Assembly (NCBI RefSeq): GCF_030732065.1
Contig: NZ_JAVBHX010000009.1
Location: forward strand, 62,001-126,000
Length of the DNA stretch: 64,000 nucleotides
Direction of reading: 5' to 3'
Source: Oceanimonas aquatica
Lineage (GTDB): Bacteria > Pseudomonadota > Gammaproteobacteria > Enterobacterales > Aeromonadaceae
A program made the translations under genes and the position numbers. The notes beneath the pieces are model-generated. The model made no database searches and was not told the origin of the DNA. It worked only from the letters and a program-made list of their open reading frames with translations. Positions 40,948 through 45,619 of this stretch are shown piece after piece. Each line of letters starts with the position of its first letter. Position 1 is the stretch's first letter.

Positions 40948-40982
40948 GGCCGACACGGCAGCCGCCGTCTCGGCCCTTTTTT
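40948..40982 (+). terminator. Terminator after cyoE
   Basis: GGCCGA-C-ACGGC and GCCGT-C-TCGGCC pair around AGCC, followed by CTTTTTT. It abuts the end of the convergent metallo-hydrolase gene. Confidence 0.85.
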
Positions 40983-42337
40983 CAGAGCGTCAGAATGCGC
41001 TCGTATTCCCCGATATTCACCTCAAAGTCCGTGGTCTGGCGCAGGTAATCGCGCATGGCTTCCAGGGCTTCCGGTTCGCCGTGTACCAGCTCGATGGCCG
41101 TGCTCGCCGTCAGCTCGGAGTCCGCTAGCCATTGCCCCAGCTCGGCATAGTCCGCATGTCCCGACAGGCCGTGCAGCCGTTCCACCCGGGCCCGGTTGTC
41201 GAACCAGTCGCCGTGAATGCGCACCTTGTCGCAGCCCTGCAACAGCTTGGCGCCCCGGGTGCCGCCGGCCTGGTGACCGGTGAGCAGCAGGGTGGTGCGG
41301 TGATCTCCCAGCAATCGCTTCATGTGATGAAGAATCCGCCCGCCGGTGACCATGCCGCTGCCGGCGATAATGATATGAGGGTACACCTCGTCGGCCAGGG
41401 CCTTGGAGTCCTCCACGCTGCGCACCAGGGTAATGACCTGCCCCATGCGGTGGCAGTCGGCCCGGCTGAGGCGGTGCTGATCCACGAACCGCTCGTAAAT
41501 TTCTCCCACCTCAATGGCCATGGGGCTGTCGAGAAACACCTTGAGTTTGGGAATGCGCTGTTCATCCATCAGTCGCACCAGCAGGTGTTGCAGGGTCTGG
41601 GCCCGGCCCACGGCAAAGCTCGGGATCAGCATGACGCCGCCGGCGGCCACGGTGTCGTTGACCAGGGTGGCCAGCTGCTCGAGCGGGTCGCCAGGCTCGT
41701 GGCGGCGATCGCCGTAGGTGGACTCCAGCAACAGCAGGTCCAGCGCCGGCAGCGGCCGGGGCGGGCGCATAAAGACATCGTCGGGCCGGCCCACGTCACC
41801 GGAAAAACCCACCTTTTTGCCCTCGCACTCCAGGATCAGGCTGCCGGCGCCGAGAATGTGCCCCACCGGTTGCAGCCAGAAGCGCATGTCGCCCACCTCT
41901 TTGGGCTGGTCAAAGTCCAGTGGCCGGAACAGTTGCATGCTGTGCTCGGCGGTTTTCCGGTCGTACAGGGGCTCGGGTTTTTCATGCTTGCTCAGCCGGT
42001 GCTTGGCCAGATAACCGGCGTCTTCTTCCTGCAGGTGACCGCTGTCCGAGAGCAGAATGTCGCACAGCGCCTGAGTGGCCGGATGGCAATACACCGGGCC
42101 CCGGTAGCCCTGCTTGTAGAGCACCGGAATATAGCCGGAGTGATCCAGATGGGCGTGGGTCAGCACAATGGCGTCGAGCTTGTCGATATCCAGGGGCAGT
42201 GGCTGCCGGTTGCGCCGGCGCAGCCACTTGTAGCCCTGGTACAGGCCGCAGTCCACCAGAATCTGCCGGTGGTTATGGCTGACCAGAAACTTGGAACCGG
42301 TCACCGTCTGGGTGGCGCCGAGAAAGGTGATTTTCAT
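40982..42337 (-). CDS. Beta-CASP metallo-beta-lactamase RNase (Ysh1/CPSF73-like)
   Basis: 451 residues. The zinc-binding MBL motif HAHLDHSG occurs at about residue 62, and the first metal His sets are followed by the beta-CASP domain: GSGMVTGGRILHH (about 327) and TGHQAGGTRG (about 352) contain the motif A-C type residues. Such COG1236 proteins are RNA nucleases related to CPSF73, and the bacterial copies are often fused in operons with nucleotide salvage genes. Here it is last of three overlapping genes (four-base ATGA overlaps) with a PRPP synthetase and an AMP/thymidine phosphorylase. Confidence 0.88.
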   Translation of the reverse strand: MKITFLGATQTVTGSKFLVSHNHRQILVDCGLYQGYKWLRRRNRQPLPLDIDKLDAIVLTHAHLDHSGYIPVLYKQGYRGPVYCHPATQALCDILLSDSGHLQEEDAGYLAKHRLSKHEKPEPLYDRKTAEHSMQLFRPLDFDQPKEVGDMRFWLQPVGHILGAGSLILECEGKKVGFSGDVGRPDDVFMRPPRPLPALDLLLLESTYGDRRHEPGDPLEQLATLVNDTVAAGGVMLIPSFAVGRAQTLQHLLVRLMDEQRIPKLKVFLDSPMAIEVGEIYERFVDQHRLSRADCHRMGQVITLVRSVEDSKALADEVYPHIIIAGSGMVTGGRILHHMKRLLGDHRTTLLLTGHQAGGTRGAKLLQGCDKVRIHGDWFDNRARVERLHGLSGHADYAELGQWLADSELTASTAIELVHGEPEALEAMRDYLRQTTDFEVNIGEYERILTL

Positions 42338-43275
42338 ATGCCTGCTCCTGCCTGGTTGTCTGGAAAGGGGGAGGGGTCATCGGTCAGCCCGGCCAGCCGC
42401 CGTGCCGGGGCCAGCAGCAGTGGAGTGAGGTCCAGCCCGTTGGACGGGTGGGGCACCGAGTTGCTGGTAATCAGCCTTTGCACGCCGGCCTGGTGCAGCC
42501 GGTCTTCAATGCGGTCGGCAAACAGGCCGTGAATGGCGGCGCACTCAATATGTTCAATGCCGGCGGCGGCAAGCGCATAAGCACACTGCAGCATGGTGCG
42601 GCCGCTGGAGATCACATCATCCACCATCACGGCGCTGTGCCCGCGCCAGGCGGACAGGTCCGGCAGTTGAATGTGCACGTCTCTGTCGCCCCGGCGCTGC
42701 TTGCTGCCCACCACAAACGGATGGCCGCTGGCTTCTGCCAAGGCCGACACCCACTGCTCGCTTTCTGCATCGGGCCCCACCAGCAGCAGGGGCTCGGGGC
42801 GGGCGCCGAGCCAGTCTGCGAGCAGGGGAGCGGCGTGCACCGCAGTCGCGGGAATGGTGTAAACCTCGCCGAGGGCATGATAGCGGTGCAGATGTGGATC
42901 CACCGTCAGCAGCCAGTCGAAGCGTTCCGAGAGCAGCCGGGCAAAACTGCGGGAGGTGACGGCTTCGCCGGCATGAAAACGGGTGTCCTGGCGCATGTAG
43001 CACAGATAAGGCGCAATCAGCCCTACCCGGCCGGCGCCCAGCTCCTTTAAGGTCTCGCACAAAAAACACAGGGGCAGCACGCGGTCGTCGGGGTGAGACA
43101 GGTCCGCCAGTATCATCACGCTTTGCCCCGGCTCAATGGTGGAAAGTATCCGCACATAACTTTCGCCATCGGGAAAGCGGCGATATTCCAGCTCGCCCGC
43201 CTCGGCGGGCAGGCTTCGGCACAGGGGCGCCAGCAGGGAGTGACCCTCGGGAAACGCGAACAACAGCGGGGTCAT
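42334..43275 (-). CDS. Ribose-phosphate pyrophosphokinase, archaeal/class III-like
   Basis: 313 residues. It has the PRPP synthetase blocks FPDGESYVRI, YMRQDTRF (ATP loop), TVDPHLHRYH (catalytic His), the flexible loop residues in KQRRGDRD and the PRPP loop MVDDVISSGRTML, so it looks catalytically complete. It differs from the housekeeping Prs (no DLHAEQIQGFF). It overlaps the phosphorylase upstream and the RNase downstream by four bases each, so all three are likely translated together. It would make or consume PRPP within a ribose-phosphate route. Confidence 0.85.
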   Translation of the reverse strand: MTPLLFAFPEGHSLLAPLCRSLPAEAGELEYRRFPDGESYVRILSTIEPGQSVMILADLSHPDDRVLPLCFLCETLKELGAGRVGLIAPYLCYMRQDTRFHAGEAVTSRSFARLLSERFDWLLTVDPHLHRYHALGEVYTIPATAVHAAPLLADWLGARPEPLLLVGPDAESEQWVSALAEASGHPFVVGSKQRRGDRDVHIQLPDLSAWRGHSAVMVDDVISSGRTMLQCAYALAAAGIEHIECAAIHGLFADRIEDRLHQAGVQRLITSNSVPHPSNGLDLTPLLLAPARRLAGLTDDPSPFPDNQAGAGI

Positions 43276-44780
43276 GGCGATTCTCCAATCATGAACAGAT
43301 CGTGATTGTGCTCATAATAGTCGGCGGCGTAGTCCAGCTCGCCCTGGCTGTCGGCATAGAGGGTAAACAGCGGCTGGCCCATGGCCATGGCCTGCCCCAG
43401 CTTGGCGTGCAGCCGCAGCCCGGCGGCAGGGGTGTTGGGGGCCCCGGCCAGCTTGGCCAGCCGGGCCAGACGGCGGTTGTCCATGGCCAGCAGGGTGCCG
43501 CTGTGGCGGGCGCCCAGTTGCAGCGAACAGGCCGCCTCGGGAATGGGCTTGAGCCCGCCCTGAGCCTCGCAAATACGCTGGAACTGCGTCCAGGCCTTGC
43601 CCGAGTCCAGCAGCTCCCGCGCCTGTTTGGCGGTGTCATCGAGGTTGCTCTTGCCCGCCATGTTCAGCAGGTTGCCGGCCAGCAGCAGGGCCCGCTCGCG
43701 CAGATCGGGTGGGGCCTCGGGCTGGTTCTGCAGCACCGCCAGCACGTCTCTGGCTTCCTCGGCCGGACCTATGCCATAGCCGATGGCCTGCTCACCATTG
43801 GTGATCAGGCAGCGCACGTTCAGTTGCAGTGCCCGGCCCACGGTTTCAAACAGCCGGCTCATGGCTTCGGCTTCGGGCTGGCTGCGCACCTTGGCGGTGG
43901 GGCCCACCGGTATGTCGATCAGGGCATGGGTGGAGCCGGCGGCGATCTTCTTCGACAGCACTGAGGCCACCATCTGGCCGGTGCCGTCGATGTCCAGCGC
44001 CCGTTCAATGCGAATGAGCATGTCGTCGGCCGGGCTCAGGTTAACGGCGCCGCCCCAGGCCAGGCAGGCGTTGGCCTGGCGCACAGTGGCCTGGATTTCG
44101 GCCAGATCCAGGTGCACCCGGGTGAGCACCTCCATGGTGTCGGCGGTGCCGGCGGGCGAGGTGATGGCCCGGGACGAGGTTTTGGCCATGATCAGGCCCG
44201 CGGCGCTGGCAATGGCCACCACAATCGGCGTGGTACGGTTTCCGGGAAGGCCGCCAATGCAGTGTTTGTCTACCAGCTGCAGCCGCTTTGGCCAGCTCAG
44301 CTGTTTGCCGCTGTCCACCATGGCCCGGGTGAGAGCGATAATTTCATCGGTATTGAGCCGCTCCACACAGGCGGTCAGAAAGGCGGCGATCTGCATGTCG
44401 GAATAGCGGTGCTGGCTGATGTCGCCGATAATGTCGTTCATTTCCCGTTTCGACAGGGTATGGCCGTACATCTTTTTGCGCACTGCGCTCATGGAATGCA
44501 GCACCGGGCCGTGGCGCACCGTGACCATCTCTTCACCGGTTAGGGCCAGGCGCTCCCAGGCGATGCGGGAAAATCCGATATGACGGGCCGGCAGCACCTC
44601 GTTGGTGACCACGTTCAGGGTGGCGATCAGGCTGCGATCCCCCACGCAAACCTGAATACGGGTGTTGGCAATAAAGCCCTCGGCCCGGCACACTTCGCTG
44701 TCGGCGCGAATAAACACCACCGGTTCCTGGTGAGTGTCGATGCCCATTTGAATGGCAAGCAGGGAATGAACGGCAGACAC
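43272..44780 (-). CDS. Thymidine/AMP phosphorylase family protein, archaeal type
   Basis: 502 residues, with the ~80-residue extra N-terminal domain of the archaeal AMP phosphorylase (AMPpase/TIGR02645) group and the nucleoside phosphorylase core: KHCIGGLPGNRTTPIVVAI (about residue 168), MAKTSSRAITSPAGTADTMEV (long block about 195) and SPADDMLIRIERALDIDG. Archaeal members turn AMP plus phosphate into ribose-1,5-bisphosphate and adenine; bacterial members may act on other nucleotides. The start is GTG at 44780, needed to include the conserved first strand. First gene of the operon. Confidence 0.82.
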   Translation of the reverse strand: MSAVHSLLAIQMGIDTHQEPVVFIRADSEVCRAEGFIANTRIQVCVGDRSLIATLNVVTNEVLPARHIGFSRIAWERLALTGEEMVTVRHGPVLHSMSAVRKKMYGHTLSKREMNDIIGDISQHRYSDMQIAAFLTACVERLNTDEIIALTRAMVDSGKQLSWPKRLQLVDKHCIGGLPGNRTTPIVVAIASAAGLIMAKTSSRAITSPAGTADTMEVLTRVHLDLAEIQATVRQANACLAWGGAVNLSPADDMLIRIERALDIDGTGQMVASVLSKKIAAGSTHALIDIPVGPTAKVRSQPEAEAMSRLFETVGRALQLNVRCLITNGEQAIGYGIGPAEEARDVLAVLQNQPEAPPDLRERALLLAGNLLNMAGKSNLDDTAKQARELLDSGKAWTQFQRICEAQGGLKPIPEAACSLQLGARHSGTLLAMDNRRLARLAKLAGAPNTPAAGLRLHAKLGQAMAMGQPLFTLYADSQGELDYAADYYEHNHDLFMIGESP

Positions 44781-44884
44781 GCTGATGATCCGAAAGTGAG
44801 TGGTGCTTAAAGCCTAGCCGCCGGCCCGAGTTTTCGCCGTCTACACTTTGGCAGGGTTGCCCTGTGCAGGAGGGAACATATGTC

Positions 44885-45619
44885 ATGCTGAGGCCCCGCG
44901 TTACCCCCAGCCGGTTATTGCACCAGCACCAGCCACTGAACGGCGACAGCCTGGGCGTGCTGTGCTGGAACACTCAGAAGCTGACCCAGGATGCACGTTT
45001 TCATCACAGTCTGACCATGCTGACCGAACGCTATGCCACCAGCCTGCTGTTGTTGCAGGAAGCCCGGCTGGCACCCATGGGAGAAGCCTGGCTGGATGGC
45101 TGGTCCTGGGCAGTGTCCCCCAACATGCAGACCCGGGCGCATCTTTTTGGGGTGCTCACCGCCGGGCGCTGCGCCTTTGACGACGTGCTGCCGCTGCTGA
45201 GCCAGAGCCGGGAGCTGCGCTTTGCCACCCACAAGAGCCTGATCCTCACCCGTCATCCACTGCCTGGTGACGGCTCCCTGCTGGTGGTCAACATGCATGC
45301 CATCAACTTTGTGCACGCCGGGTTGTTTATGAACGAGATGGAACTGCTGCGGGCCGAGCTGCTGCGCCACACCGGCCCCCTGATTGTGGCCGGCGACTTT
45401 AATGTTTGGAGCCGCCAGCGCCGGCTTTATCTGCGCCGGTTCTGCCGGGCCACCGGTTTGCGCCAGGCGGTGATGGAAAATGCCCACCATGTGAAAAGCT
45501 ACCTGCGCCAGCCCCTCGACTTCATCTTTTACCGGGATCTTTATCTGCGTTCGGCCGAGGCCATCAATATGCCCGGCATCTCGGATCACAACCCCATCTA
45601 CGCCCGCTTTTTGCTGTAA
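44885..45619 (+). CDS. Endonuclease/exonuclease/phosphatase family protein
   Basis: 244 residues. EEP-fold motifs are LCWNTQKL (residue 25), LLLQEARL with a metal-binding Glu (about 52), IVAGDFNVWS (about 165) and ISDHNPIYARF (about 232). Members act on phosphodiester or phosphate bonds in DNA, RNA or lipids; no signal peptide is present, so it is cytoplasmic. The ATG at 44885 is downstream of AGGAGGG. It is divergent from the phosphorylase-PRPP-RNase operon across about 100 bp and may be regulated with it. Confidence 0.82.
   Translation: MLRPRVTPSRLLHQHQPLNGDSLGVLCWNTQKLTQDARFHHSLTMLTERYATSLLLLQEARLAPMGEAWLDGWSWAVSPNMQTRAHLFGVLTAGRCAFDDVLPLLSQSRELRFATHKSLILTRHPLPGDGSLLVVNMHAINFVHAGLFMNEMELLRAELLRHTGPLIVAGDFNVWSRQRRLYLRRFCRATGLRQAVMENAHHVKSYLRQPLDFIFYRDLYLRSAEAINMPGISDHNPIYARFLL

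Follow-up and report, generated by a model that had tools for sequence, protein, structure and literature searches.

A conserved operon in Oceanimonas aquatica joining an AMP-phosphorylase-type enzyme, a PRPP-synthetase-like protein and a beta-CASP nuclease, with a possible role in nucleotide breakdown

Results

In a 64,000-nucleotide stretch of the Oceanimonas aquatica genome (contig NZ_JAVBHX010000009.1, positions 62,001 to 126,000; hereafter the window), three minus-strand open-reading frames (ORFs) spanning 44780-40982 form an operon that is real and widespread. We read it, with about as much confidence as doubt, as a nucleotide-breakdown operon in which nucleoside monophosphates (NMPs) would be phosphorolysed to ribose-1,5-bisphosphate (R15P), to be handled in turn by an enzyme resembling phosphoribosyl pyrophosphate (PRPP) synthetase. 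Direct observation supplies the gene content, its co-conservation, a PhnN fusion that takes the place of the PRPP-synthetase-like protein in some genomes, and a changed loop in that protein. The first gene encodes a putative NMP phosphorylase of the adenosine monophosphate (AMP) type (PRK04350/TIGR02645; 43272..44780, 502 aa, GTG start), assigned by profile scores, residues and tree. The second encodes the PRPP-synthetase-like partner (PRK07199; 42334..43275, 313 aa), with catalytic residues kept, a GPDxES loop and an extra HLHR motif, and the third a TTHA0252-like beta-CASP metallo-beta-lactamase nuclease (40982..42337, 451 aa), recognized by its Pfam domains and metal motifs. Each adjacent pair has exactly 4 bases in common (43272..43275 and 42334..42337, both on the minus strand), so the ORF coordinates confirm the overlaps, and the three-gene operon itself, reported in a preliminary description of this DNA, whose interpretation is partly supported.

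The phosphorylase scored 651 bits against NF003338/PRK04350 (cut-off 434) and 584 bits against TIGR02645 (cut-off 434.6), and fell far under the cut-offs of the models for thymidine phosphorylase (TIGR02643, 134.8 vs 570.7) and pyrimidine nucleoside phosphorylase (TIGR02644, 199.7 vs 409). Its best solved sequence relatives, 4ga5 (329 bits) and 4ga4 (325 bits), are deposited as putative thymidine phosphorylase, and we take them to be the AMP phosphorylase of Thermococcus kodakarensis. In the alignment, R182, K200, S203, T207, S208, W242, P291 and K297 are kept in 56/56 non-fused bacterial, 6/6 fused and 2/2 haloarchaeal AMP phosphorylases, while 4/4 thymidine phosphorylases carry other residues at these eight signature positions, and in the tree a branch with a support of 100 parts the operon phosphorylase from thymidine phosphorylase (tree and residue counts omit L086, which is partial, and L012, a copy of L011). 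At three further positions, I256, E259 and Q269, which the alignment would place near the putative base site, the archaeal residue is found in at least 53 of the 56 non-fused bacterial rows and another residue in all six fused rows. The enzyme is thus of the archaeal AMP phosphorylase type and not a classical DeoA, as previously proposed, and a thymidine phosphorylase identity was rejected on score, tree and signature residues.

The co-conservation anticipated in the preliminary description was found in a first sample of 398 genomes drawn from the phylum (genomes carry G numbers and loci L numbers). PRK04350 was over cut-off in 44 genomes, PRK07199 in 40, both in 39 and neither in 353, which places PRK07199 in 39/44 phosphorylase genomes vs 1/354 others (Fisher p = 2e-47, relatedness ignored), an association that is not due to chance. 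PRK07199 directly follows the phosphorylase at 39 of the 47 phosphorylase places, in 38 of the 44 genomes. In G285, a PRK07199-type gene adjoins the phosphorylase at 299.6 bits, under the cut-off of 322, and with this gene, the 39 over cut-off and four PhnN fusions, a predicted PRPP-forming partner is present in 44/44. The same three genes occur on four annotated plasmids, those of Methylophaga thalassica, Sphingobium amiense, Roseovarius mucosus and Shinella sp. HZN7, where acetate kinase, phosphoketolase, copper ATPase, CBS-domain and F0F1-ATPase genes lie nearby in one or two plasmids each. Counting fusions and the AMP phosphorylases of haloarchaea, a phosphorylase match at E 1e-40 occurs in 116 plasmid records. 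One locus, L092 (G255:C142), looks like decay, with a phosphorylase match over only ~300 positions, an internal stop and an oppositely oriented nuclease gene.

The second gene scored 374 bits against NF005537/PRK07199 (cut-off 322) and also passed the general PRPP synthetase model TIGR01251 (170.5 bits, cut-off 113), and its best solved match was the PRPP synthetase 1u9y (123 bits), presumably the Methanocaldococcus jannaschii enzyme. Over 53 operon-type PRK07199 sequences (near copies kept; L007, L067 (partial), L012, the second gene of L081 and rows under the coverage limit omitted), F34, D36, E38, R95-Q96-D97, H128, K192, R194, D219-D220, T227 and H249 are kept, residues that are invariant in 9/9 housekeeping PRPP synthetases. 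The housekeeping loop SPD(I/V)GG, by comparison, reads GPDxES in PRK07199, with PDxE(S/A) in 53/53, E171 in 53/53, S172 in 50/53 and W175 in 52/53. The motif PDxG(G/A), which we take to be the pyrophosphate loop of PRPP synthetases, is not present in these 53 sequences, and position 171 is G in 9/9 housekeeping enzymes and in 7/7 distinct solved sequences with printed alignments. H130-R131, part of the HLHR motif, is invariant in operon-type PRK07199 only. The intact but non-housekeeping PRPP synthetase of the preliminary description therefore stands as far as its catalytic residues go, but PRK07199 has a clade-specific loop and might differ from ordinary PRP​P synthetases. The same genome also encodes a second, housekeeping PRPP synthetase whose loop is canonical (G000:C21). 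A PRK07199 protein with the operon-type loop (GPDAES) was seen at L093 (G383:C9).

In G249, G308, G382 and G392, PRK07199 was not over cut-off and PhnN lies in the same frame as the phosphorylase, N-terminal to it. Both halves of all four fusions were over cut-off by hmmscan (PhnN 164-186, cut-off 156; PRK04350 544-590, cut-off 434). PhnN turns R15P into PRPP, as stated in the passages available from PMC11452294, and because the fused PhnN converts that compound, the fusion argues that the phosphorylase family makes it. Together with the altered PRK07199 loop, which points the same way, the fusion suggests R15P as a shared intermediate. Two more fusions are on annotated plasmids of Variovorax sp. 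SRS16 and Pacificitalea manganoxidans and one in genome G454, and nadC directly precedes the fusion in 7/7 of those found (L088 7970-10933, L089 9119-12116, L090 9159-12181, L091 7925-10580, L100 10159-13154, L101 10125-13091 and L173 in G454). The NadC assignment was made in L088 (313, cut-off 198); in the other three of the first four fusions, the preceding gene belongs to the same cluster. The fusion in L100 has in its neighbourhood a binding protein resembling Bug27 (2qpq, 457 bits), Bug27 being a quinolinate binder according to passages of PMC11452294; NicC is encoded in L090 (5eow, 571 bits), and L101 and L173 carry transporters of the TAXI-TRAP type. This content suggests that the fusion loci could convert quinolinate to nicotinate mononucleotide, then to nicotinate plus R15P, and R15P to PRPP; the decarboxylation would recycle its PRPP and supply nicotinate for catabolism. 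In G542 (L154, G542:C7), a separate, divergent PhnN gene is next to the phosphorylase; beside it is a protein that looks like a phosphoribosyltransferase by reading and to which no NCBIfam model gave a match at 1e-10.

A second sample, 240 genomes of the class of G382, was searched with the fused protein as query at E 1e-60, the PRK04350 cut-off not being applied, and gave phosphorylase matches in 35 genomes, three of which (G382, G087 and G075) are shared with the first sample. PhnN was over cut-off in 6/35 (2 fused, 1 adjacent and 3 elsewhere, one of these 3 also with PRK07199). Nine of the lone phosphorylases in this sample form one clade (100 support), all from genomes of at most 2.3 Mb, and three of the nine, plus L155 outside that clade, lie beside grpE and/or dnaK. 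The lone phosphorylases of L155, L161, L166 and L169 have such neighbours (the dnaK of L166 assigned by reading only) in genomes of 1.4-2.5 Mb with neither partner over cut-off, and two more lone phosphorylases (G479, G603) adjoin the beta-CASP nuclease. Under a simple model, all lone and fused phosphorylases but L171, whose row is long and uncertainly placed, fall in one 48-row clade (97 support). Among the bacterial rows that are not in this clade, 44/45, the window's included, are from genomes or loci with a PRPP-synthetase-like gene, a count that takes in L072, a second copy in G304 with no such gene beside it, and L133, L137, L153 and L170, whose genomes have the gene elsewhere.

As to the fate of the sugar, the absence of Rubisco and R15P isomerase noted earlier for the window extends to the whole genome, in which neither R15P isomerase (TIGR00511) nor Rubisco (PF00016) has a match at E 1e-10. 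R15P isomerase was over the TIGR00511 cut-off in 0/80 first-sample genomes (the 44 with phosphorylase and 36 for comparison, hand-picked, with completeness as the criterion, among 100 drawn at random) and in 0/35 of the second sample (3 shared). Weaker matches below the cut-off occur in 38/80 and 16/35 genomes and are absent from the O. aquatica genome. Rubisco is commoner in phosphorylase genomes (21/44 vs 6/36, p = 0.004, with related genomes repeating). An isomerase and Rubisco route was rejected as the fate of the sugar, given no isomerase over cut-off in either set and no Rubisco in the window's own genome. Of the kinase or isomerase that the preliminary description suggested seeking elsewhere in the genome, the kinase PhnN was found, in a carbon-phosphorus (C-P) lyase gene run with PhnH, PhnM and PhnP, and the isomerase gave no match. 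Phosphoketolase matched at E 1e-40, a limit that misses divergent relatives, in 11/44 phosphorylase genomes vs 40/354 others (p = 0.016, relatedness ignored). It is firmly assigned in L050, as gene cluster c18. A divergent phosphoketolase-like protein was also seen in the phosphorylase loci L073, L074, L075 and L079; that of L074, the only one tested, is over the Pfam XFP cut-offs and scores 117.5 bits vs 962 for the best NCBIfam phosphoketolase model.

The third gene is, as described before, a beta-CASP RNase by its Beta-Casp (108.7, cut-off 27.7) and RMMBL (49.2, cut-off 21.6) domains and its metal motifs. It carries HAHLDH, GHILG, SGDVGR, GGRILHHM and SGHAD, and matches RNase TTHA0252 (2dkf) over residues 1-432 with 247 bits, while passing neither the aCPSF1 model (249.6 vs 580.2) nor that for Cas14 of type VII CRISPR (351.1 vs 800). 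In the first sample the nuclease shares the gene run of the pair, 5' or 3' of it, in 18/44 phosphorylase genomes, and in the second it is within 1.5 kb of the phosphorylase in 17/30 loci, of which two belong to genomes that the first count includes. It also adjoins the phosphorylase in G608, G516, G603 and G479, where PRK07199 is not over cut-off genome-wide. Membership of a divergent EEP-family nuclease (44864-45619; NF003842, 228.7 bits), which the preliminary description had allowed for, was not upheld, as this gene was matched in just 3/60 compared loci, L003 and L004 (Oceanimonas) and L006 (Zobellella).

The operon is already in print. In the passages available from PMC9104804, bll3117-bll3116-bll3115 of Bradyrhizobium diazoefficiens is a predicted operon listed as FixK2-dependent, with a motif at -74; bll3117 is down 6.6-fold and bll3115 30.6-fold in a fixK2 mutant, and the phosphoketolase and acetate/propionate kinase genes bll2518-2517 stand in the same FixK2 table. 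The three genes and a phosphoketolase are also entered in a protein and gene expression table, in the part seen of PMC6515984. Among the matches listed from the open-licence literature, titles, abstracts and passages assign no function to the operon and report no PhnN-phosphorylase fusion. The 14-base box of the Bradyrhizobium operon recurs unchanged in two loci, L058 and L060, and with one base altered in L061.

In the window, the trio converges on a run of plus-strand genes that, by reading of the sequence, is probably of the cytochrome o oxidase type; the final ORF of this run reaches to 40922. Scans of the window for tRNA and Rfam families found nothing. The genome is 3.45 Mb in size, and the nearest named relatives are Oceanimonas baumannii and O. 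marisflavi, whose phosphorylases show 91% and 86% identity.

Discussion

We infer every reaction of the following route from sequence. The beta-CASP nuclease, judging by its family, would cut RNA to 5'-nucleoside monophosphates. The phosphorylase would then convert NMP and phosphate to base and R15P, a phosphorolysis that we consider likely given its family, its active-site signature and the PhnN fusion. The PRPP-synthetase-like enzyme would most likely move R15P into the pool of PRPP and ribose 5-phosphate (R5P), and an R15P-directed enzyme of this kind is a specific, testable possibility. It might stand in for PhnN (R15P + ATP to PRPP + ADP), or it might run PRPP-synthetase chemistry in reverse with one phosphate less (R15P + AMP to R5P + ADP), and the ribose phosphate would return to central metabolism or to the synthesis of nucleotides. 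In some lineages other than the window's, these genes are expressed at low oxygen or lie near phosphoketolase and acetate kinase genes, which would suit an emergency supply. A bolder version, which we put forward only tentatively, would make PRK07199 an R15P-specific phosphotransferase that arose from PRPP synthetase through its rewritten pyrophosphate loop. Together with the NMP phosphorylase it would take the nucleotides of RNA through to PRPP or R5P in bacteria, perhaps saving the phosphate used in phosphorolysis as ADP, and the related fusion clade of NadC, NMP phosphorylase and PhnN would be a PRPP-regenerating cycle for decarboxylating quinolinate to nicotinate.

Several results weigh against the proposed route. 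The phosphorylase is under the cut-off of the equivalog for AMP phosphorylase proper (TIGR03327, 468.6 vs 535), and the pass of TIGR01251 means that PRK07199 may still carry out ordinary PRPP synthesis. G383 has PRK07199 without a phosphorylase match at E 1e-60. In the second sample, PRK07199 was over cut-off in 16/35 genomes and neither PRK07199 nor PhnN in 14/35, a failure of any universal partner rule; with the isomerase over cut-off in 0/35 as well, the phosphorylase is able to do without them. In the trees the fused clade is nested within the rows linked to the PRPP-synthetase-like gene, L072 counted with these (support 95; 97 and 96 under a simpler model), but this placing is unsure, because the approximately unbiased (AU) test did not reject a single clade of all 56 non-fused bacterial rows (p = 0.128). 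The nuclease was not seen in the gene run of 26/44 genomes, in at least three of which (G036, G086, G236) the contig breaks off next to the pair. Phosphoketolase, for which a search at E 1e-40 gave nothing in the window's own genome, was rejected as a general partner on that ground and on the counts given above, and is kept as context. An oxygen-regulator box, allowing up to 2 mismatches, is absent from the window gap 44780-44884. Upstream of the operon in 51 other loci (L010, L086-L093 and the window itself omitted), boxes with at most 1 mismatch are weakly enriched (9/51 vs 52/587 control regions, p = 0.04) and perfect boxes are not (3/51 vs 22/587, p = 0.32), and the box was dropped as a general feature.

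That the phosphorylase makes R15P could be right and the second enzyme nevertheless an ordinary class III-like PRPP synthetase, making PRPP from R5P and ATP for re-salvage of the base while PhnN or a phosphatase removes R15P. This we consider possible though rather unlikely. It accords with the TIGR01251 score, with the conservation of the housekeeping-invariant RQD, H128, K192, R194, D219, D220 and T227, with the PhnN in the C-P lyase run of the same genome, and with the several new bacterial PRPP synthetase classes with conserved catalytic residues reported in the passages seen of a 2026 preprint (PMC13252144), from whose main text the word "phosphorylase" is absent. The loop, however, is altered in 53/53 sequences, the genome already has a housekeeping PRPP synthetase, the alternative partner PhnN acts on R15P and not on R5P, and PhnN over cut-off is no commoner with the phosphorylase than in the chosen other genomes (14/44 vs 11/36).

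We also doubt, without dismissing it, that the phosphorylase and PRPP-synthetase-like protein are the functional unit and the nuclease a frequent, dispensable passenger with another role, for example in rRNA or mRNA turnover under stress. The many runs in which the nuclease was not seen, even allowing for those cut by contig edges, and its varying position before or after the pair would fit a passenger; its presence in the run of 18/44 genomes, and beside phosphorylases without PRK07199 over cut-off, speaks against one. Housekeeping salvage of pyrimidine or thymidine nucleosides, with the phosphorylase acting as the thymidine phosphorylase it is annotated to be, is highly improbable. The database name of the PRK04350 family is "thymidine phosphorylase", and K172, H173, S202, R204, S273 and K277 are common to the operon enzyme and thymidine phosphorylases, yet both nucleoside phosphorylase models score far under cut-off, the fully supported branch separates the two groups, and in one clade the enzyme is fused to a kinase of R15P, a substrate that no nucleoside phosphorylase would supply.

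Bacteria are known to contain R15P, but its place in their metabolism is ill defined. A probable R15P producer joined to a remodelled PRPP synthetase, apparently exchangeable with PhnN, would, if the proposed route is true, give R15P a bacterial role outside the C-P lyase pathway, and a new way of reusing nucleotide sugar in many bacteria is plausible on the sequence evidence. The route would also explain the microoxia-regulated Bradyrhizobium operon, which is given no function in the source passages. Two family names may then be wrong, PRK07199 being annotated as PRPP synthetase and PRK04350 as thymidine phosphorylase.

Comparison with known systems

The archaeal pentose bisphosphate pathway of T. 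kodakarensis consists of AMP phosphorylase, R15P isomerase and a type III Rubisco. The window enzyme resembles the archaeal AMP phosphorylase over the full profile length and in the signature residues, but the isomerase was over cut-off in none of the genomes tested, Rubisco has no match in the window's genome, and the partner is a PRPP-synthetase-like enzyme or PhnN. With the class III PRPP synthetase 1u9y, PRK07199 shares the FxxGE motif, the catalytic H, K-x-R and DD..T, but where 1u9y has APDKGA, PRK07199 has GPDxES plus the HLHR motif. The nuclease is like the beta-CASP RNase TTHA0252 (2dkf) in sequence and metal motifs and differs from it in operon partner. B. diazoefficiens bll3117-bll3116-bll3115 has the same three annotated genes as the window in one predicted operon (passages of PMC9104804 and PMC6515984), a likeness that rests on annotation and on the loci L058 and L060, in which the Bradyrhizobium box recurs; a low-oxygen box lies upstream of that operon and none in the window. 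PhnN, the ribose-1,5-bisphosphokinase of the C-P lyase pathway, and PRK07199 are unrelated sequence families, and the PhnN of the window's genome sits in a separate phn gene run, but where PhnN is fused to the phosphorylase, it probably acts on the phosphorylase product.

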